Assembly (NCBI RefSeq): GCF_001299635.1
Contig: NZ_JRHN01000047.1
Coordinates: 62,001-126,000, forward strand
Length of the DNA: 64,000 nucleotides
Direction of reading: 5' to 3'
Source of the DNA: Clostridioides difficile
GTDB taxonomy: Bacteria; Bacillota; Clostridia; Peptostreptococcales; Peptostreptococcaceae
The first letter of the stretch is position 1. Every line of letters begins with the position of its first letter. Of the stretch, positions 53,905-64,000 are shown piece after piece. The position numbers were made by a program, and so were the translations under genes. Under the pieces are notes generated by a model. That model searched no databases, had not been told where the DNA came from, and saw only the letters and a program-made list of their open reading frames with translations.

Positions 53905-55821
53905 CTAAAAATTAACTAAATTTAATCTTATCTCTTTTAAATAATTATTTCTCACAATTAAGAAATACACTATTTGAACTAAAAATAGACTTCCCATTAC
54001 CAAAACTGCTGAAGATGCTACCTCTATATCAAAAGAATTTCTCAGTGCAGTAAGTGCAAATATCGAATGTATAACTGCCACTACATAAGGCAATAAAAAC
54101 ACAATTCCAATCTCAATAGTTGAAGCTTTTTTAATCTCATTATATGTCATCCCTAACTTATTTAACTGCTCATACTTTTTCTTGTCTACTTGACAATCCA
54201 TATAAAACTTATTATATAAAAAGCTACTTGTAGTAACAAAGAAAATCATACCTATAAATATTGCCAAAAACATAAATGTAGAATATGTTAATTTACCATT
54301 TTCTATCATTAATTCTTTAGAGAAGAATAAATATGGTTGCATTCCAGACTCATCATTAAATTTATTCTCAAATTGTCTACATATCTCTGTAGTTTTACTT
54401 GAATCAGCTACTTCAAATGTAGTAAATCTATCCACTATAAATTTTGATTTTATACTATCATAAAAATTATCTTTTACCACATACATATTGTCATAATATG
54501 CTGGCATAATACACTCTTCTACTTGTTTTACTATCCTTAGACTTTTATTACCTATAACCACATTGTCTTTAACTTTCTTATCACCTGGCAAGTTTGATGA
54601 AAGCAATGATATAGATTCATTATCTTCAAAACTTATAGGGTTAACTCCTATAGTCTTTGTGATTTCTAGATACTTAGATTCTTTCATAATTCTCACATTA
54701 AAATCGCTTTTCTTAGGAAATACAGTTTTAAATTCTCCATTAATTCTTGTATAATCTACATTTTCTTTTTTTAATTTGCTTTCTATAAATCTCATTCTTT
54801 CCTTATCTTTTTCTTTACTATCAGGCTTGTTAGTATCATTATGCAAAGTCATTGTTGAATAATACATTGTGTTAGGATATATTAAATTAATTTGACGCTT
54901 TACATCTTTCCAAAATGAATAAACTGTACCTATAGCAGTAAATGCTACTGCAGAAGTTATAGCTATCAAAAAGAATATCCTAGCATTATCCTTTACTTTG
55001 TAAATTAAATTTGAAATCCAAAGCATATTCGTATTTTTTCTATAAAATCTCTTATTTAATTTTAGCTTTTTTAGAAAAAAAACACTAAATTGAGAAAAAA
55101 ATAAATAGGTTGCTAATATAGTAAGAGATGTAACTGGAACTAAGCGTAGATATGTTGTATATTGGTCAGTTGATGTAACAGCACTATAATATGCTATTAC
55201 AAACAGACAAATACTTAATATAACAAATACTAGTGATGTTTTAGGCTCTGGTTTTGGAGTTTTTGTACCTTTAAGCAATCTCAATACTTGATTTTCCTTA
55301 ACTATAAAAGAAGCAAATACTGATGTTAATATAGCTAAAATTATGAAGTAAAATAAAGTAGATAATATTGCATTTATTGGTATATAGAACTTCAATGGTG
55401 ATAATTCTAAAAAGGTAGACATAATCACTAAAAATATCTTTGAAAAGACTAAACCTATTATTACTCCAATTACAGAAGATGCTATATTTATTATTATATT
55501 TTCTATAAAAATTAACTTCATTACCTGTTGCTTTGATATACCTGTAATGTAAAGTATTCCAAATTCTTTATATCTACTTTTAAGAAATATACTCACTGAA
55601 TAAAATACAAAGAAGAATAAAAATAAATATGCAATTATTTTACTCATCTTAAGCCCCTCTTTTAGATAATCGGGAAATTGAGATATCTCTAAATCGGGAT
55701 GACTTGTAAACATGATAAAAGAAAATAGTAGGACAGAGGATATAACGATACTTGCTAAATACCCTACATAAGCTTTAATGTTTCTTGAAATATTGTTGAT
55801 GGCAAATTGTTTTATATTCAT
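53905..55821 (-). CDS. BceB-type antimicrobial-peptide ABC permease (FtsX family)
   Basis: A 638-residue permease with about 10 helices and a large extracellular domain (about 310-505) between helices 7 and 8, the layout of BceB proteins. The N-terminal NIKQFAINNISRNIKAYVGY and RYKEFGILYITGISKQQVMK are typical. Such permeases free the lipid target from bound peptide antibiotics and also signal flux to the partner kinase. It shares one base with the ATPase stop. Substrate unknown; bacitracin-like or lantibiotic peptides are usual. Confidence 0.88.
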   Translation of the reverse strand: MNIKQFAINNISRNIKAYVGYLASIVISSVLLFSFIMFTSHPDLEISQFPDYLKEGLKMSKIIAYLFLFFFVFYSVSIFLKSRYKEFGILYITGISKQQVMKLIFIENIIINIASSVIGVIIGLVFSKIFLVIMSTFLELSPLKFYIPINAILSTLFYFIILAILTSVFASFIVKENQVLRLLKGTKTPKPEPKTSLVFVILSICLFVIAYYSAVTSTDQYTTYLRLVPVTSLTILATYLFFSQFSVFFLKKLKLNKRFYRKNTNMLWISNLIYKVKDNARIFFLIAITSAVAFTAIGTVYSFWKDVKRQINLIYPNTMYYSTMTLHNDTNKPDSKEKDKERMRFIESKLKKENVDYTRINGEFKTVFPKKSDFNVRIMKESKYLEITKTIGVNPISFEDNESISLLSSNLPGDKKVKDNVVIGNKSLRIVKQVEECIMPAYYDNMYVVKDNFYDSIKSKFIVDRFTTFEVADSSKTTEICRQFENKFNDESGMQPYLFFSKELMIENGKLTYSTFMFLAIFIGMIFFVTTSSFLYNKFYMDCQVDKKKYEQLNKLGMTYNEIKKASTIEIGIVFLLPYVVAVIHSIFALTALRNSFDIEVASSAVLVMGSLFLVQIVYFLIVRNNYLKEIRLNLVNF

Positions 55822-56567
55822 TAATTATCGCCCCCCAATAATGTAAGTACATCCATTATCTCTTGATAAAACTGCTCTCTACTACTTCCCTTATATATTT
55901 CATTATATATAGCTCCATCTTTTATAAATAAAATCCTACTACAATAACTTGCAGCTAATGGGTCATGAGTTACCATCATAGTAGTAACCTTATTTTCTCT
56001 ATTTATATTCTCAAATAACTCCATAACAGTCTTTGATGACTTTGAATCTAAATTACCAGTTGGTTCATCTGCTAAAAGTATTGATGGTCTATTTATTAAT
56101 GCTCTAGCAATAGCAGTTCGCTGAGCTTGACCACCTGATACTTCAAAAGTTCTTTTTTCTAATAAATCTTTTATCCCTAAAATTCCAGATACTTCAGCCA
56201 ATCTATTATTTTGTTCTTTTACACTAACCTTATCTAATGTCAATGGTAATACTATATTTTCACCTATAGTTAAGGTATCTAATAAATTAAAATCTTGAAA
56301 TACAAAACCTAACTCTCTTCTTCTAAATAATGCAAGTTCTTCACCTTTTAATAGTAGTGGATTCTTACCTTTTAGCTCCATAGTTCCTGTAGTTGGTTTA
56401 TCAATAGTAGAAATCATATTTAAAAGAGTAGTTTTCCCACTGCCAGATGGTCCCATAATTCCTACAAATTCTCCATCATCTATACTAAAATTTATATCAT
56501 TTAATGCATTAAAAATTATTTTCTTGCCATATACTTTACTTAAATTATTTACAGTTAAAATTTTCAT
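55821..56567 (-). CDS. BceA-type antimicrobial-peptide ABC ATPase
   Basis: A 248-residue ATPase of the LolD/MacB-like group that drives the FtsX-type permease. Walker A is GPSGSGKTTLLNMISTID, the signature VSGGQAQRTAIARAL, Walker B ILLADEPTGNLDS and the H-loop MVTHDPLAA. AAAGGATAG precedes the ATG. It lies 108 nt after uppP without a terminator, so it is probably in the same transcript. Confidence 0.92.
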   Translation of the reverse strand: MKILTVNNLSKVYGKKIIFNALNDINFSIDDGEFVGIMGPSGSGKTTLLNMISTIDKPTTGTMELKGKNPLLLKGEELALFRRRELGFVFQDFNLLDTLTIGENIVLPLTLDKVSVKEQNNRLAEVSGILGIKDLLEKRTFEVSGGQAQRTAIARALINRPSILLADEPTGNLDSKSSKTVMELFENINRENKVTTMMVTHDPLAASYCSRILFIKDGAIYNEIYKGSSREQFYQEIMDVLTLLGGDN

Positions 56568-56675
56568 TATTAACTATCCTTTCTAATCTAATTTTTGAAA
56601 TAACATATATATTTATTTGTTAATTATTATTTATATTGGTTAGCTAATTCTCGTAAATAATAAATATATCTTAAT

Positions 56676-57527
56676 CTATACACTAATTATGTTTGTAAAA
56701 GCTAATATAGCAAGCAATATTCCCATAAGTATTCTATATATAGCAAATACTCTCATTGATTTTTTCTTTAGAAAATCCACAAATTTTTCCATAACTACTA
56801 TTGATACAATAAAAGCTACTATAAATCCAACTATCAAGGCAATCCACAATGTTGGTGTCATTATTGAATAATCAAATTCAAATAAATCCTTTCCTGAGGA
56901 AGCTACCATAGCTGGCACAGCTAAAAAGAAAGAAAATTCAGCTGCTATAGGAGAATTAAGTCCTGCTATCCATCCACCCATAATAGTAGATGCACTTCTT
57001 GACATACCTGGCCATGCAGATAAAACTTGTAAAACTCCAACTTTTAATGCTTGTATTGGCGTGATTTTGTCTATATTATCAGTAGAATGTTTCTTTTTTC
57101 TAAACAAAGTCTCTACCACTAGTAATAAAATCCCACCAACTATAAATCCTATAATTACAGATTGTAAATTAAACAAGGCTTTTATGTTGTCATAAAATAG
57201 AACCCCCACAATCGCAAATGGAATACATGCTATAATTACATTCATTCCAAATTTAAAGCCAGTTTTTCCTTCTTTTCCACCAGTAAATATAAATTTTAAA
57301 AATTCTATAACACTATCTTTTATTTTCTTCCAATAAAGTACTACTACTGCTAATATTGCTCCAAGTTGTATTACAACCTCAAACATTTCAGCAAATTGTC
57401 CTTTAAAATCTATCAAGCTACCAACCAATATCATATGACCAGTAGATGAAACTGGGATAAATTCCGTAAGCCCCTCTACTATAGCTATCATAACTGATTT
57501 TAATATGAAAATAATATCTAAACTCAT
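56676..57527 (-). CDS. uppP: Undecaprenyl-diphosphatase UppP (BacA)
   Basis: A 283-residue, about 8-helix membrane phosphatase that recycles undecaprenyl pyrophosphate to the monophosphate lipid carrier; extra copies raise bacitracin resistance. The two active-site motifs are present: EGLTEFIPVSSTGHMILVG (Glu-rich motif) and LSAWPGMSRSASTIMGG (PGxSRSxxT). The start is the ATG at 57525-57527 after GGAAAGGATG, with a TTG one codon before it. Placement between the sensor genes and the ABC genes, as in some bcr loci with BcrD, suggests a shared function in lipid-II-cycle defence. Confidence 0.94.
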   Translation of the reverse strand: MSLDIIFILKSVMIAIVEGLTEFIPVSSTGHMILVGSLIDFKGQFAEMFEVVIQLGAILAVVVLYWKKIKDSVIEFLKFIFTGGKEGKTGFKFGMNVIIACIPFAIVGVLFYDNIKALFNLQSVIIGFIVGGILLLVVETLFRKKKHSTDNIDKITPIQALKVGVLQVLSAWPGMSRSASTIMGGWIAGLNSPIAAEFSFFLAVPAMVASSGKDLFEFDYSIMTPTLWIALIVGFIVAFIVSIVVMEKFVDFLKKKSMRVFAIYRILMGILLAILAFTNIISV

Positions 57528-57627
57528 CAATAAACATCCTTTCCTTTTTGCAAAATTTATTTTTTATGTTATTTCTTATACTAATTGTAATTTAGATTAG
57601 AAAATTTAACTATCTACAAACATTACA

Positions 57628-57653
57628 CAAACCTTACAGCTATGTAAGGTTTG
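57628..57653. promoter_or_regulatory. BceR-type operator upstream of uppP
   Basis: A perfect 11-bp inverted repeat (CAAACCTTACA, loop GCTA, complement) contains TTACA-GCTA-TGTAA at 57634-57647, an exact fit to the TNACA-N4-TGTNA box of BceR-like regulators. A candidate -10 (TATAAG, minus strand, 57575-57580) with no good -35 lies about 55 nt downstream, as expected for an activated promoter. Confidence 0.75.
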
Positions 57654-57750
57654 CAGGTAAACTCTATTAAAATTAGATTTTTTAACTGTAATTATCTCAT
57701 TCAACAAATAATATATAAATTAATAAAAAACATAATCAATTAAAGATTTA

Positions 57751-58752
57751 TTATAGAAAATTATTCATATTATCTTTATTAAACATTATTGAAACTTCTG
57801 TGCCTTTTCCTACCTCTGATTTTATGCTGACTTTATGCCCTAAATCATCACATACTTTTTTTACTAGATAAAGTCCCATACCTGTAGATTCTCCAAACTT
57901 ACGACCGTTTTCCCCTGTAAAAAACGGGTCAAATACTCTTTTTATATCTTTAGAAACAATCCCAACACCCTCGTCTATTATACTTAGTGTTACATAGTTA
58001 TTGTTTTCTTCAGCTTTTATATTTAGGTAGTTACTATAACCTTTAGAATATTTCACACCATTTGTAATCAACTGGTTTATTATAAATTTCATCCATTTTA
58101 TATCTGTATAAACATAAGTAAATTTGTCTATTTTTATCTTCGGAATTATCTCATTTTTTATAAATAGCCTCTTTTCTTCATTTACAATACCAACTACAAT
58201 TTCGTTCAATTTAGCTTTCTCAACCACAAAATCTTTTTGGAAATTATCTGCCCTTGCAAAGTGCATCGCCATATTTAGACCTTTATTTAGCCTATCTAGT
58301 TCTTCTCTTATGTTTTCTGTTACTTCTTCTCCCTCATATTCTTGAAGTTGAAGACTTATAACTGATATTGGTGTTTTCATCTGGTGAATCCATTGATTGA
58401 TGAAAGTTAAATGTTCACTATGTACTTTTTTATGTTCTTGTATCATTGATTGATATAATTTATGTTGTTGTTTTAAAATAGCTGATATATTTCTTCCCAA
58501 GAAAGAATTTCCTAAATACAAGAATGATTCATCCAGAGATTTTATGCCTTTTTTGAATAGAGTATATACTTCTCTATGCTTATAGTATTTATATATTAAA
58601 AAACACAATAATATAAAAGAGCTAAATAAAAGAATATATAAACTCTCTCCCAAATTGATAAATTTCATAAGATTACAATAAATAATTGTCATAAATATTC
58701 CTATATAATATATAAAAATATAACCCTTACAATCTCTAAAAAATAATTTCAT
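57751..58752 (-). CDS. BceS-type intramembrane-sensing histidine kinase
   Basis: A 333-residue kinase with two N-terminal helices (about 10-30 and 36-54) joined by a very short loop, so it has no external sensor domain. This is the intramembrane-sensing architecture that depends on a BceAB transporter for its signal. The phospho-acceptor His is in FINQWIHQMKTPISVI, and the ATPase boxes are NQLITNGVKYSKG, DEGVGIVSKDIKRVFDPFF and STGMGLYLVKK. It is 9 nt after the regulator gene. Confidence 0.92.
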   Translation of the reverse strand: MKLFFRDCKGYIFIYYIGIFMTIIYCNLMKFINLGESLYILLFSSFILLCFLIYKYYKHREVYTLFKKGIKSLDESFLYLGNSFLGRNISAILKQQHKLYQSMIQEHKKVHSEHLTFINQWIHQMKTPISVISLQLQEYEGEEVTENIREELDRLNKGLNMAMHFARADNFQKDFVVEKAKLNEIVVGIVNEEKRLFIKNEIIPKIKIDKFTYVYTDIKWMKFIINQLITNGVKYSKGYSNYLNIKAEENNNYVTLSIIDEGVGIVSKDIKRVFDPFFTGENGRKFGESTGMGLYLVKKVCDDLGHKVSIKSEVGKGTEVSIMFNKDNMNNFL

Positions 58753-58761
58753 ATTTTCTCC

Positions 58762-59454
58762 CTACCAATTTTTATTTAATTTATATCCTAATCCTCGTAC
58801 AGTTTGAACAGCATTATCTATACCTAATTCCTCAAATCTTTTTCTTATCCTGCTAACATTTACATTTAGAGTATTTTCTTCTACAAATTCAATATCGTCC
58901 CATATCTTTTCTAACAGATAATCTCTACTTACTACTTTTGGGTATTTTCTAATGAGGCATTCAATCAATATCCCTTCTTTCTTAGTAATAATTAGAACTT
59001 TTCCACCTAATTCTAACTCCAACCTCTCTGGATAAAACTTCAATCCATCTAATTCAACTATTCTTTCCTCTATTTTAGGTGAATATTCACCATAGACTCT
59101 TCTTATATGACTCTTTATCTTTGCCATTACTACATCATAATAAAAAGGCTTTGTTATATAATCATCTGCTCCACTTTCTAAAGCTCTAATCTGGTCTACG
59201 TTCCCATCTCTAGCTGATATAAAAATTATAGGTAGATTAGACTGCTGTCTAATACATCTACACCAGTAAAAACCATCAAATTTAGGTAAATTTACATCCA
59301 ATAGCACTAAATCTGGCTTTATTTTTTCAAATGTAACCATTATATCATCAAAGTTTTCTTCAACAACCACTTCAAATCCATATTTCTCAATATAATCCTT
59401 AAGTAATGTACTTATTGATATATCATCTTCCACAATATATATTTTATGACTCAT
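58762..59454 (-). CDS. BceR-type OmpR-family response regulator
   Basis: A 230-residue regulator with a receiver domain (1-120; acidic pair ED at 9-10, phospho-Asp in VLLDVNLPKFDG, Lys in YITKPFYYD) and a C-terminal OmpR/PhoB winged helix (about 130-228; VSRDYLLEKIWDDIEFVEEN). It should be phosphorylated by the adjacent kinase and activate uppP and the ABC genes through the box at 57634. GGGAGG precedes the ATG. Confidence 0.92.
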   Translation of the reverse strand: MSHKIYIVEDDISISTLLKDYIEKYGFEVVVEENFDDIMVTFEKIKPDLVLLDVNLPKFDGFYWCRCIRQQSNLPIIFISARDGNVDQIRALESGADDYITKPFYYDVVMAKIKSHIRRVYGEYSPKIEERIVELDGLKFYPERLELELGGKVLIITKKEGILIECLIRKYPKVVSRDYLLEKIWDDIEFVEENTLNVNVSRIRKRFEELGIDNAVQTVRGLGYKLNKNW

Positions 59455-59520: not shown

Positions 59521-59554
59521 AAAATAGAAAAAGTTACCTTAATTAAGGTAACTT
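59521..59554. terminator. Terminator of the ssu-like operon
   Basis: AAGTTACCTT (59531-59540) and AAGGTAACTT (59545-59554) form a perfect 10-bp stem with an AATT loop. On the minus strand it is followed by TTTCTATTTTA. Confidence 0.85.
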
Positions 59555-59599: not shown

Positions 59600-60559
59600 C
59601 TACTTAGCAGCATATATTAATTCTTTTATGTCTACTTTTTTCTCTTGCAATCCATTTTTTATTAAGAAATTTTGTGTATCTTCAAGTGAAGATATGTCTT
59701 TATCTGTTATATCTAAACTAAAATCATACCAAGCATACAACTCTTTAGTTTCTTCAACACTTAAATCAACTTCTTTAGCTACTTTTTCCATAGCTTCATC
59801 AAAATTATTATTTACATATTCTAAAGTCTCTTCTTCAACCTTCATAAATCTTTCAACTATCTCTGGATGTTTCTCTGCAAAATCTGTACTAACAGCTGTT
59901 ACTATTATCCCATCTACTAAACCTTCACCATTTGCTACAAGTTTACTTCCAGACTTCATAGCTTTAAGGGCTGCTGGTCCAGCAATCAATGCAGCATCAA
60001 CACTGCCATCAGCAAGAGCTGCTGATGCTTCTGGGATACCCATGTTAATAAACTCTACATTATCCATACTTAATCCTTCTTTATCAAGAGCTGCAATTAA
60101 TACTTGATGTAGTATAGTTCCTTTTGGACCTGCTACCTTCTTACCTGCCAAATCTGCTGCTGATTTTATTGAACCATCGTTAGTTAAAATCATAAATCCT
60201 TTTGGTGACCTACTATAAGTGTTCAGTATCTTTAATTCCACTCCATTAGATGCAGCTATCAAAGCTGATGTACCACCCAATGCATGTAAAAAGTCTATTT
60301 CTCCAGCAGCTAAGGCCTGTGTCTGCTCTGGTCCTGTAGTAATTTCATGGAAATTAACTTTTATATTATCCTTTTTAAATTCCTTTCTAAATAAATCATC
60401 CTGTTTTTGAATTATAGAAGGAACATTTAATGGTGATTTTACATAAGTTAAATTTATTTCTGAAAGTTTTTCTCCATCATCTTTTTTAGCACATCCACCT
60501 AAAGATGTTGTTGCAAGCGTTAATATCGTTATACCTACCAATAGTTTTTTTAATTTCAT
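59600..60559 (-). CDS. ssuA: SsuA/NMT1-like ABC substrate-binding lipoprotein
   Basis: A 319-residue binding protein of the SsuA/TauA/NMT1 group (sulfonates, taurine, nitrate, thiamine precursors). A lipobox LGGC gives lipidation at Cys23. Ligand-site blocks are KSPLNVPSIIQKQ, AAGEIDFLHALGGTSALIAA and AGKKVAGPKGTILHQVLIAA. It is the last gene of the operon, 32 nt after the ATPase. The ssu name is family-based; because the operon has a Fur-like box and begins with an iron-sulfur-like protein, the real ligand may not be a sulfonate. Confidence 0.85.
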   Translation of the reverse strand: MKLKKLLVGITILTLATTSLGGCAKKDDGEKLSEINLTYVKSPLNVPSIIQKQDDLFRKEFKKDNIKVNFHEITTGPEQTQALAAGEIDFLHALGGTSALIAASNGVELKILNTYSRSPKGFMILTNDGSIKSAADLAGKKVAGPKGTILHQVLIAALDKEGLSMDNVEFINMGIPEASAALADGSVDAALIAGPAALKAMKSGSKLVANGEGLVDGIIVTAVSTDFAEKHPEIVERFMKVEEETLEYVNNNFDEAMEKVAKEVDLSVEETKELYAWYDFSLDITDKDISSLEDTQNFLIKNGLQEKKVDIKELIYAAK

Positions 60560-60591: not shown

Positions 60592-61470
60592 TTACATGTC
60601 TTTATTTAATTTCATTGTCATTAAAATATCTTTTTTTAATTTAATATAATAGTCTGAAGTCAAATCTCTATCATAATCATCTTCTATATTAAATTCTTTT
60701 ATTTTTCTTTTGTTTGTAAAAACAACTATTTTCTTGCCTATCTTTAATGCTTCATCGATATCGTGAGTTACAAATATTACACCTTTATTAGTTGACTTAT
60801 GTATTCTTATAACTTCATTTTGCATATCAATCCTTGTAAAATAATCTAATGCCGAAAAAGGTTCGTCCATAAACAACATATCTGGATTGAAAGAAAGAGC
60901 TCTAGCTATACTTACTCTCTGCGCCATACCTCCTGATAACTCATTTGGATAAGAATTTTTAAATTTCTGCAAGTTCATCATCTTAAGATATTTTTCTACA
61001 TCAATACAATTTTTCTTATTAGGTCTATTTAAGTAATTTAAATTATCATTAGTCTCTAAATCTATGGAATTATCATTTATACCTTTACTAGCAATGCTTC
61101 TGTGATATTTGAATTTACCAAATACTTTACTTAAAATAGTGTTTTTTCTTTGATTATGTAAGGCTATATTTTCACTTACACTTAACCAAGGCATCAATCT
61201 ACTCTCTTGAAATACAAATCCTACATTAGGTCTATACTCTTTATTATCTTTAACAAATCTAATCTCACCACTATTTATATCTTCAAGGGATGCAATTGCT
61301 CTAAGTAAAGTAGTCTTTCCACATCCACTTTCACCTAAAATTACAGTTATATGATTTTTATCTATGTTCAAAGAAATATTACTAAGAACTATGTGTTCTT
61401 CATTGTTGACTTCATAACTTTTAGATAGATTTCTGATTATGTACCCAGAATCACATACTAAATTATTCAT
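60592..61470 (-). CDS. ssuB: SsuB-like ABC ATPase with internal insertion
   Basis: A 292-residue ATPase of the SsuB/TauB group. Walker A is GESGCGKTTLLRAIASL, signature LSGGMAQRVSIARAL, Walker B MLFMDEPFSALD and the H-loop FVTHDIDEALK. It is about 35-45 residues longer than usual because of a polar, Asn/Lys-rich insertion at about 108-150 (KYHRSIASKGINDNSIDLET and onward) between the Q-loop region and the signature. It overlaps the permease gene by 8 nt. Confidence 0.88.
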   Translation of the reverse strand: MNNLVCDSGYIIRNLSKSYEVNNEEHIVLSNISLNIDKNHITVILGESGCGKTTLLRAIASLEDINSGEIRFVKDNKEYRPNVGFVFQESRLMPWLSVSENIALHNQRKNTILSKVFGKFKYHRSIASKGINDNSIDLETNDNLNYLNRPNKKNCIDVEKYLKMMNLQKFKNSYPNELSGGMAQRVSIARALSFNPDMLFMDEPFSALDYFTRIDMQNEVIRIHKSTNKGVIFVTHDIDEALKIGKKIVVFTNKRKIKEFNIEDDYDRDLTSDYYIKLKKDILMTMKLNKDM

Positions 61471-62245
61471 AGGCTTCCACCATCTTTCCCTTACTTACCT
61501 TTTTCACAATAATTGAAAATATATAATCTGTAATTATTCCTAAAAGTCCAATTACAATTATACCTACAATGACAACATCTGTTCTAGACATTTCCTTTCC
61601 ATCAGATATCAAGTAACCAAGACCTGAAGAAGCTGCTACAAGCTCTGCCCCAATAATCGCTCTAAAACTATATCCAAGAGCCAACTTTAGTCCAACTGCA
61701 ATATCAAGAATGGCATTAGGTATAATTATTTTAAATATTATTTGAATCTTTGAAAACTCAAATACTCTACCTACTTCAATCAGTTTTGAGTCACAATTCC
61801 TAATCCCCTTTAATGTGCTTGTAAAGATTGGGAAAAAAGAAGCCAAAACTATAATTATAATTTTCGATTCTTCTCCTATGCCAAACCATAGTATAAGCAT
61901 TGGTATTAAGGCAAGTGGAGGTGTATTTCTCAAAAAATTTATTAACGACTTAAAATATTCATATACTCCACTATGAATTCCAAAGAATATCCCTAGAGGT
62001 ACACCTATTGCAGTACTTATTGCAAATCCTATCAAAACTCTTTTCATACTTGCATATACATTAATAAATATTGAACCATCACTTATCATATTTAAAAATG
62101 TACTATACACCTTTTCAGGTGATGGTAATATATAATCACTCCAGATACCAAGATAATTAGTAATTTTCCATAATAAAAGAATTATAAAAAATATCAAAAC
62201 ACTTTTTACTAGACTTAAAAACCTATTATTAAATTTATTGACCAT
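61463..62245 (-). CDS. ssuC: SsuC-like ABC permease
   Basis: A 260-residue permease with about 6 helices and the binding-protein-dependent EAA loop SKLIEVGRVFEFSKIQIIF. LRNTPPLALIPMLILWFGIG and the C-terminal SYSFRAIIGAELVAASSGLG are typical of the SsuC/TauC family. It begins directly after the stop of the HydA-like gene (no gap), so the two are translated together. Confidence 0.9.
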   Translation of the reverse strand: MVNKFNNRFLSLVKSVLIFFIILLLWKITNYLGIWSDYILPSPEKVYSTFLNMISDGSIFINVYASMKRVLIGFAISTAIGVPLGIFFGIHSGVYEYFKSLINFLRNTPPLALIPMLILWFGIGEESKIIIIVLASFFPIFTSTLKGIRNCDSKLIEVGRVFEFSKIQIIFKIIIPNAILDIAVGLKLALGYSFRAIIGAELVAASSGLGYLISDGKEMSRTDVVIVGIIVIGLLGIITDYIFSIIVKKVSKGKMVEAYE

Positions 62246-62875
62246 TTACAAACCATCTCCATTATTACACCCATCTTTACAATAAAACATTTCTACTATA
62301 TCATACTTATCTTTAGAACCATCTCTTATATTTTGTATTTCGCTTAAGATTTCTTCTTCAGTCGATACTTCAAGAACCTTTTCAAAAGAGTCTTTGAAAT
62401 ATCCTAATGGAATAGGAGATTCATCTATCTTTCCAAGTGATTTTATACCTTCTTTTTCAGCAAATTCTTTCCATGTATAAAATATAGCATTACTCTTATC
62501 CTTAAATTTTTCACTTGCAAAATCCCTTAATTGTGTACATGGAGAGGTTACTATCAGCATATCATCTTCACTCTTGATATATTTGTCATATAAAACCCTA
62601 CAAGTTCTTACTAGTATTGGTTCTATCATAGGTATTTCAAAACTATCTATCAAATTATTTCTTTTTAAAAGGTTTATACTCTCTGGACATCTACAATCTA
62701 ACATTGTATTCTCAGTCTTTTTTGTATACTCTTTATATTGCTTCTTTACATATTCTAATTGTGGCTCACATTCTGCCATTATGTACCCCTTTTTTATCAA
62801 ATTTTCTTTGACAAGGTGAAACTTTTCCCCATACATTCTTTCTGCCACTGGATTTATTAGAAGATATTTATTCAT
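62246..62875 (-). CDS. Compact protein with [FeFe]-hydrogenase H-cluster-like cysteine motifs
   Basis: A 209-residue soluble protein of unknown function. Three blocks echo the loops that hold the H-cluster in HydA: LDCRCPESI with Cys61/Cys63 (compare TSCCP), VTSPCTQLRDF with Cys113 (compare MPCxxK), and VEMFYCKDGCNNGDG with Cys199/Cys203 (compare MACxGGCxxGGGQ). Together these can supply the four cysteines of a 4Fe-4S cluster. The usual N-terminal ferredoxin domains and most of HydA (over 350 residues) are absent, and the residues lining the proton path are not recognisable, so hydrogenase activity is doubtful. It is the first gene of the ssu-like operon behind AGGAGGAGCT. Fe-S sensor, reductase or cluster scaffold are possible roles. 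Confidence 0.6.
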   Translation of the reverse strand: MNKYLLINPVAERMYGEKFHLVKENLIKKGYIMAECEPQLEYVKKQYKEYTKKTENTMLDCRCPESINLLKRNNLIDSFEIPMIEPILVRTCRVLYDKYIKSEDDMLIVTSPCTQLRDFASEKFKDKSNAIFYTWKEFAEKEGIKSLGKIDESPIPLGYFKDSFEKVLEVSTEEEILSEIQNIRDGSKDKYDIVEMFYCKDGCNNGDGL

Positions 62876-62897
62876 AGCTCCTCCTATTATTTAATAT

Positions 62898-62912
62898 TGA
62901 ATATTATTATCA
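62898..62912 (-). promoter_or_regulatory. Fur-like box upstream of the HydA-like/ssu operon
   Basis: On the minus strand TGATAATAATATTCA matches the 7-1-7 Fur consensus at 12 of 14 informative positions and lies just after the -10, near the expected start site. The position is the same as in the fhu promoter of this window. Confidence 0.65.
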
Positions 62913-62918
62913 ATTACT

Positions 62919-62947
62919 AGTTTAAATGAGCACTTAAATTTTGTCAA
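62919..62947 (-). promoter_or_regulatory. Sigma-A promoter of the HydA-like/ssu operon
   Basis: On the minus strand TTGACA (62942-62947), a 17-nt spacer and TAAACT (62919-62924). The leader would be about 35 nt. The rest of 62948-63200 shows nothing else recognisable. Confidence 0.7.
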
Positions 62948-63239: not shown

Positions 63240-64000
63240 TTATAAATATTTCATTTTAACATCATCTATAATTTGTAAAATTTTATTTCTAACATCTATT
63301 GGCTCCAATACTTCAATATTTTTTCCAAAAGAAAGTATATACCCATAAATCCAATCATTTTTTGGATACTGTACTGTTACGATGAAATCTCCATCATTAT
63401 CATACAATATATTATCAATATCAAATTCATCATACACTCTATAGCCTACATCTTTAGAAATTTTTAACTTTAAAGTAATACTTTCATTCTCATCTTCTTT
63501 TATCTCTCCAACTTCAACTGGTATACTCCTTATAAATGTCTGTTCACAAACACATATATTTCTCATCCTTACAATCTTAAAAATTCTATAATCATTTTTT
63601 TGATGACAATAGGCTTTGATATACCATGACTTCTCTTTAAACCAAAGCATAAGTGGTTCTACACAACGCTTTGTTACCTTTCCATAAGTATTTATGTACT
63701 CAAAAGTTATAATATTACAATCTAAAATGGCTGATTTTATTTTTATAAATTTATCTTTCTCTATATCATTACTACCCCAATGAGAAAAATCAACAGTTAT
63801 CCAGTTTATATCTGACTTACAAAATAAAGGTTTAAGTTTTGATAATGTAGAATCAATTTCTGGATATTTAAGAATATTTAAACTTTCTAATGAGGCTAGA
63901 ATTTCTTTCTGTTCTTGCTCAGACAAAATAGATTTATCAAAGGTAAAATTATCTAAAATACCTATACCCCCATTTCTGCCTTTGTCAGTATAAATTGGAA
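63240..64000 (-). CDS. WYL-domain (YafY-type) regulator, 5' end outside window
   Basis: The C-terminal 252 residues of a regulator whose frame stays open to the window edge, so the start and helix-turn-helix are missing. The first visible residues PIYTDKGRNGGIGILDNF are the conserved segment linking HTH and WYL domains in YafY-type proteins. The WYL block is RCVEPLMLWFKEKSWYIKAY and a WCX-like C-terminus follows. A TTG-started frame of 228 residues (from 63926) is not the true start. The target is unknown; the ssu-like operon lies just downstream, separated by a terminator and its own promoter. Confidence 0.85.
   Translation of the reverse strand, partial: PIYTDKGRNGGIGILDNFTFDKSILSEQEQKEILASLESLNILKYPEIDSTLSKLKPLFCKSDINWITVDFSHWGSNDIEKDKFIKIKSAILDCNIITFEYINTYGKVTKRCVEPLMLWFKEKSWYIKAYCHQKNDYRIFKIVRMRNICVCEQTFIRSIPVEVGEIKEDENESITLKLKISKDVGYRVYDEFDIDNILYDNDGDFIVTVQYPKNDWIYGYILSFGKNIEVLEPIDVRNKILQIIDDVKMKYL

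Follow-up and report, generated by a model that had tools for sequence, protein, structure and literature searches.

Why would an operon that responds to iron shortage open with a gene for a protein resembling the H-cluster domain of [FeFe]-hydrogenases and continue with the genes of an importer? The question is raised by a stretch of 64,000 nucleotides of Clostridioides difficile DNA (assembly GCF_001299635.1, contig NZ_JRHN01000047.1, positions 62,001 to 126,000 of the forward strand), hereafter called the window, which carries four consecutive genes on its minus strand. The first encodes H (62246..62875), a compact, stand-alone, H-cluster-domain-like protein of 209 amino acids (aa). It is followed by genes for an SsuC/TauC-like permease of an ATP-binding cassette (ABC) transporter (61463..62245, 260 aa), an ABC ATPase (60592..61470, 292 aa, with an 8-nt overlap with the permease gene), and a substrate-binding protein of the NMT1/SsuA family (59600..60559, 319 aa), which has by eye a lipoprotein-like start and carries the signature TYVKSPLNVPSI. 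The last base of the H stop codon is 62246 and the first of the permease start codon (ATG) is 62245, leaving no spacing between them. An earlier sequence-only reading of this DNA had described the 209-aa frame, with cysteines in LDCRCPESI, TSPCTQLRDF and EMFYCKDGCNNGDG, as directly abutting ssuC, and both details are present in the window.

Gene order and annotation identify the operon as the homologue of C. difficile ssuA2B2C2 (CD630_29890-29910). The counterparts in strain 630 are CD630_29920, annotated as "iron hydrogenase-like", and ssuC2, ssuB2 and ssuA2 (PMC6311696). The earlier view that this was an undescribed system is thus only partly right: the genes have been listed in print, but no functional account of them was found in the open-licence literature, and no functional study of H was found among the matches listed in the open-licence PubMed Central (PMC) literature. 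Our answer to the opening question is tentative. The four genes may form a Fur-repressed iron-starvation operon that handles an iron-bearing or iron-related cargo, with H as a cytosolic redox partner or acceptor, a proposal that we place somewhat short of an even chance. Stated more broadly, the operon is probably a new way to acquire or handle an iron-related nutrient.

Conservation and iron control of the operon

The H importer operon is carried by Clostridioides and by scattered other anaerobes. Searches for H at E<1e-20 gave hits in 16 of 393 genomes from the order, in 5 of 391 from the class and in 2 of 398 from the phylum (one match is a fragment, and the three samples overlap), and a search for it on plasmids gave no match. 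Three C. difficile assemblies encode H at 91-96% identity to the window. We compared 12 H loci from 11 genera (the window, L005, L066-L074 and L079; L067 and L069 are of the same genus), leaving out other Clostridioides copies and a fragment in G030. Eleven of the 12 loci keep the gene order H-permease-ATPase-binding protein (H-C-B-A) with all four genes in the same orientation, which supports the linkage to an SsuABC-like importer noted in the sequence-only reading. The most distant H shares 27% identity with that of the window and the most distant binding protein 48%, and the trees of the two proteins show no conflict at supported splits. At L074:3974-4624, an H gene stands without an adjoining permease or other transporter gene and without a Fur box. 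A fifth gene lies directly after H-C-B-A in two of the 12 loci (L068:11767-12312 and L079:926-1459, 43% mutual identity); it has no Pfam match, and elsewhere among the loci only a weak match was found, in L117.

The response of the C. difficile operon to iron and to fur is already in print. Low iron and loss of fur both raise its transcripts, and its proteins where these were detected, the log2 values for the H transcript being 2.93 in low iron and 4.38 in the fur mutant (PMC6311696). The idea, put forward in the sequence-only reading, of a transporter-linked protein made under iron starvation stands as regards both the importer link and the induction. For ssuA2, a SigH promoter has also been reported (PMC7438776).

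A Fur box, TGATAATAATATTCA, is present at 62898..62912 (minus strand), as had been noted, immediately past the -10-like element of a promoter-like TTGACA-17-TAAACT (62919..62947, minus strand; consensus match only). It agrees with every position of the consensus TGATAATVAWHWTCA given in PMC6311696, the comparison being made in the window strain and not in strain 630. Six of eight Clostridioides loci were displayed, four with the TGATAATAATATTCA box and two with TGAGAATAATATTCA. As sole proof, however, the window box was rejected: the window holds 3 matches to the pattern against 2.5 expected, so that the box alone proves little and only recurrence across genera counts. A second Fur-box-like site, TGATATTGATTATCA, with one mismatch, lies at 2583-2597.

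We therefore rely on a search for sites that match TGATAATNATTATCA with no more than 2 mismatches within 300 nt upstream. Such a box was found at 10 of the 12 H loci (all except L072 and L074) and at none of 19 transporter-only loci, which carry the importer without H (L120, L170 and L171 were excluded, and L117 offered 178 nt only). Set against the first 16 transporter-only loci, the H loci differ with p 5e-6, uncorrected for relatedness. Within the same loci, 9 of 10 H operons have a box within 100 nt, compared to 1 of 156 other open reading frames (ORFs); within 300 nt the counts are 9 of 10 and 5 of 154 (p 1e-10). For this comparison L074 and L079 were excluded and the other ORFs were mechanical ones of at least 100 aa. 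At L066, L070, L071 and L072, the upstream distance was taken from an internal start picked by alignment. A tree-paired test of H against the Fur box gave four pairs for, none against and one without difference (p 0.125), which is too few pairs. As judged from these comparisons, the recurrence of the box across genera is not due to chance, and together with the published C. difficile response (PMC6311696) it supports the iron and Fur control suggested at the outset.

Relationship of H to the [FeFe]-hydrogenase domain

Is H truly related to hydrogenases? Alone, the window protein gives a weak Pfam match to PF02906 (E=0.0014, 18.8 bits, under the 22.1 cut-off), while 14 of 15 members of the H family reach E<=1 with this model, with values down to 5.9e-12. 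In an HHalign comparison with a hydrogenase-like family (alignment A7, 563-584 aa), the probability was 98.3% and the E-value 1.6e-14; the match spans 200 columns and brings all four cysteines into register. The predicted structure of H matches [FeFe]-hydrogenases across residues 1-209, and H is about 80 residues shorter than the corresponding part of the CpI enzyme. When the PDB was searched by sequence, H on its own returned nothing significant and the A2 profile only matches of E 0.13 or worse. The profile-profile comparison and the predicted fold settle the relationship to the H-cluster domain, and the resemblance is not one of chance. The likeness proposed in the sequence-only reading is thereby borne out by the two approaches it had recommended, profile search and structure prediction, as well as by the Pfam matches of the family.

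The four cysteines that serve as ligands in three loops of [FeFe]-hydrogenases are present in H, and in the alignment they are the only cysteines invariant in all 15 members: Cys63 (loop 1, RCP; codon 62687..62689), Cys113 (loop 2, PC; 62537..62539), and Cys199 and Cys203 (loop 3, CxxGC; 62279..62281 and 62267..62269), all on the minus strand. Of the two cysteines in LDCRCP to which attention had been drawn, the second (Cys63) is conserved in the family but the first is not.

Other residues speak against a working hydrogenase. The residue before Cys63, which corresponds to the relay Cys299 of CpI, is Arg in all 15 members; at this proton-relay position, C or A stands in the 14 of 18 hydrogenases whose loop fitted the search pattern, and L or F in two more viewed in alignments. 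Enzymes of group D are likewise without this Cys (PMC11803613). The Lys three residues after the loop 2 cysteine, which contacts the H-cluster cyanide, occurs in none of the 15, compared to 17 of the 18 hydrogenases collected. The active-site Met pair (M353 and M497 in CpI) is replaced throughout, by S/C/T/A and by F/L. The losses of the relay Cys and of the Met pair are not decisive alone, since the group D enzyme TamHydS has replaced the relay Cys and both Met (Ser and Leu being among the replacements) and still contains an H-cluster (PMC11803613).

Genomes were also searched for the maturases HydF and HydG. Of 13 H genomes, 12 have HydF over the cut-off (in two of the 12, H is either an orphan or just a fragment), as do 15 of 15 transporter-only genomes and 17 of 22 others, an enrichment too weak for use. 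Genome G049 (one contig, 99% complete) has a full H operon with its Fur box and neither HydF nor HydG over the cut-off. Since the relay Cys and the loop 2 Lys are lost in all 15 members and G049 lacks both maturases, it is very unlikely that H is a functioning H-cluster protein.

The importer and its possible cargo

The signature of the binding protein is identical in 26 of 26 sequences (window numbering: P43 L44 N45, P47, I49, T97 S98, Y115 S116, G144 P145, G147 T148, H151, A193 G194); L173, which is outside the 26, reads PLNAPA. By alignment with the solved TauA and SsuA proteins, these residues are taken to line the binding pocket, and their constancy around it suggests that the importers carry one kind of cargo.

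What might this cargo be? The binding protein scores 191.6 bits against the SsuA-family model TIGR01728, above the cut-off of 163.5, and its best solved structural matches are taurine- and sulfonate-binding proteins. An organosulfur cargo is therefore quite possible, and sulfur import is a serious rival to an iron-related role: the importer would take up a sulfonate, taurine or a thiol as a source of sulfur under iron shortage, and H would be a cytosolic iron-sulfur (Fe-S) redox protein that frees the sulfur. This would be consistent with a published remark on sulfur-iron co-regulation (PMC6311696) and with the reported induction of CD2989-2991 by cysteine, mentioned as an unpublished remark in PMC5767170. 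However, the permease and the ATPase score far below the cut-offs of the SsuC and SsuB equivalogs (173.8 versus 347 and 136.4 versus 395 bits), and this binding-protein family has AGP where two solved proteins have WAP or WDP. The neighbours noted so far are hydE/hydF, hydA, hcp and feoB, the flanks not having been searched for sulfur genes. We consider sulfur import unlikely, though a contender that deserves attention.

Relatives of the importer without H

A binding-protein profile detected copies without H in many genomes, two of which (G000, the window's own genome, and G180) also hold an H operon elsewhere. To account for the tree of 26 transporters, 7 gains or losses of H are needed, of which 5 are forced by supported branches. 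At L128:6144-6167, immediately before the permease start, there is a short GCNNGDV-stop remnant, apparently the end of an H gene that was lost.

Some of these relatives adjoin hydrogenase-maturation genes. HydE and HydF are encoded at 4 of 22 transporter-only loci, from three families: L114, L171 and L172 have the order C-B-A-TM1266-HydE-HydF on one strand, and L130 has HydE-C-B-A with HydF on the opposite strand. At one further locus of the 22 (L173), a group A6 hydA precedes C-B-A directly and hypF follows. Because several loci are short, both counts may be underestimates. A partial hydrogenase-like protein, under the family cut-offs, is encoded about 5 kb upstream at L169, and hcp occurs at L118 and at the H locus L066. 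No hydE, hydF or full hydA was found near 17 of the 22 transporter-only loci, nor, at E<=1e-8, in the stretch searched at any of 13 H loci; weak HydF matches at L073 and L075 look by eye like Era GTPase. No literature joining the transporter to hydE or hydF was found among the matches listed for open-licence PMC. It is possible that the link to hydE, hydF and hydA reflects an unknown input to H-cluster assembly. The idea that the importer replaces HydG is unsupported, as HydG scores over the cut-off in three of the four genomes with the transporter and hydEF, the fourth (G952) being a 360-contig draft. In G047, rated 100% complete, there is HydF but no HydG over the cut-off, and the importer stands behind hcp.

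The second importer copy in the window's genome (L110:2049-8169), which has no H and no Fur box, lies behind feoB, a FeoA-like gene (below cut-off) and, by eye, an AIM24-like gene. The leaders of nine transporter-only loci (L114-L119, L121, L129 and L131) share, some 60-200 nt upstream of the permease, a CTGA...AAAGG-like core and a terminator-like hairpin, possibly a new leader RNA. At gathering thresholds, none of 8 scanned leaders, seven of these nine among them, matched Rfam, and two transporter-only leaders gave weak matches at chance level; RNAalifold found no pairs in the transporter-only leaders, so that the model built carried sequence only and was set aside, and a custom descriptor fitted only 3 of 16.

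Flanking genes in the window

A terminator-like hairpin (59531..59554, minus strand; consensus match only) lies 3' of the binding-protein gene. Directly downstream, at 55821-59454, are an ABC ATPase (by eye), the undecaprenyl-diphosphatase UppP and a two-component system, which together resemble a module for the response to cell-wall antibiotics, with no relation to the operon. On the other side, a gene for a WYL/WCX-domain regulator (63240-63998) is truncated where the window stops; it lies ahead of the operon, set off by a terminator-like hairpin of its own.

Proposed function and alternatives

How could the parts work together? Iron shortage would relieve Fur repression of the H-C-B-A operon, and the importer would then take up a small molecule that bears iron or is related to it, in the form of a chelate or thiolate complex and not of a plain sulfonate. 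H would hold one [4Fe-4S] cluster, meet the cargo in the cytosol and, as its redox partner or acceptor, either release the iron or take it over. In this it would be analogous to the siderophore reductase FhuF, though unrelated to it.

Several points weigh against this proposal. Fur boxes are missing at two of the 12 H loci (L072 and L074), and at L074 H has no neighbouring transporter gene. PMC6311696 calls the effect of Fur indirect, no box having been found. The transporter need not be dedicated to iron, since none of the 19 transporter-only copies has the box; 17 of the 22 such loci have no hydrogenase genes of the kinds searched for, and both the organosulfur-type binding protein and the cysteine effect point elsewhere. 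Making an Fe-S protein is costly under iron starvation. Finally, we infer the substrate, the cluster and the reductase role alike.

Alternatively, H could be an Fe-S sensor or gate whose cluster tells the permease and ATPase about the state of iron or redox in the cell. The H gene opens the operon directly next to that of the permease, the transporter can occur without H, and the best-matching hydrogenase-like family, whose proteins we take to be sensory, extends further at its C-terminal end and has additional conserved Cys there. Yet H has no output domain, Fur already senses iron, and contact between H and the transporter is hypothetical, making this reading quite improbable. The hydrogenase neighbours (HydE and HydF at L114, L171, L172 and L130, hydA at L173) and the hydrogenase fold of H would agree with an importer that supplies a HydE/HydF building block for H-cluster assembly, with H carrying the block or an iron synthon. 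We give this a slim chance: G049 has H and the transporter and no HydF or HydG over the cut-off, most transporter-only loci and all H loci searched lack hydE, hydF and full hydA, and the importer does not simply replace HydG because HydG is present in G043, G413 and G784. A wider proposal, in which the PLNVPSI importers are a new class that takes up either an iron complex or a building block of the H-cluster, for use by HydE and HydF or, in iron-starved cells, by H as a retired hydrogenase domain serving as intracellular receiver, seems to us rather unlikely. That H is an active miniature [FeFe]-hydrogenase, as its fold and four cysteines might invite one to think, has practically no chance and was rejected in view of its Arg in place of the relay Cys, its missing loop 2 Lys, its size (209 aa, some 80 residues too short and with no room for an electron-relay domain) and the one genome without HydF and HydG.

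If the iron-handling proposal is true, anaerobes, gut species included, have a hydrogenase fold among their means of acquiring iron, and a transporter annotated "sulfonate" acquires a concrete substrate question. The link of the importer to hydE and hydF could reveal an unknown input to H-cluster assembly.

Comparison with known systems

FhuF is a [2Fe-2S] siderophore-iron reductase and, as proposed for H, an Fe-S protein under Fur control beside an uptake system; the likeness is one of analogy only, and no FhuF match is among the 12 Pfam families matched by the 15 H members at E<=1. With the H-cluster domain of [FeFe]-hydrogenases (PF02906), H shares the whole-domain fold, the four ligand cysteines and sequence homology, but it is a stand-alone protein of 209 aa without ferredoxin domains, linked to an importer, with Arg for the relay Cys and no loop 2 Lys. 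Non-catalytic proteins of the Narf/Nar1 type retain the hydrogenase fold for a [4Fe-4S] protein without H2 chemistry. Nar1 carries an Fe-S domain at its N-terminus and takes part in cluster assembly, whereas H is bacterial, compact and transporter-linked. With SsuABC/TauABC and C. difficile ssuA2B2C2, the window shares the C-B-A gene set and a binding protein of the NMT1/SsuA family. Unlike SsuABC/TauABC, its importer type has its own PLNVPSI signature, a Fur box and H as partner, and some of its relatives adjoin hydrogenase and iron genes.
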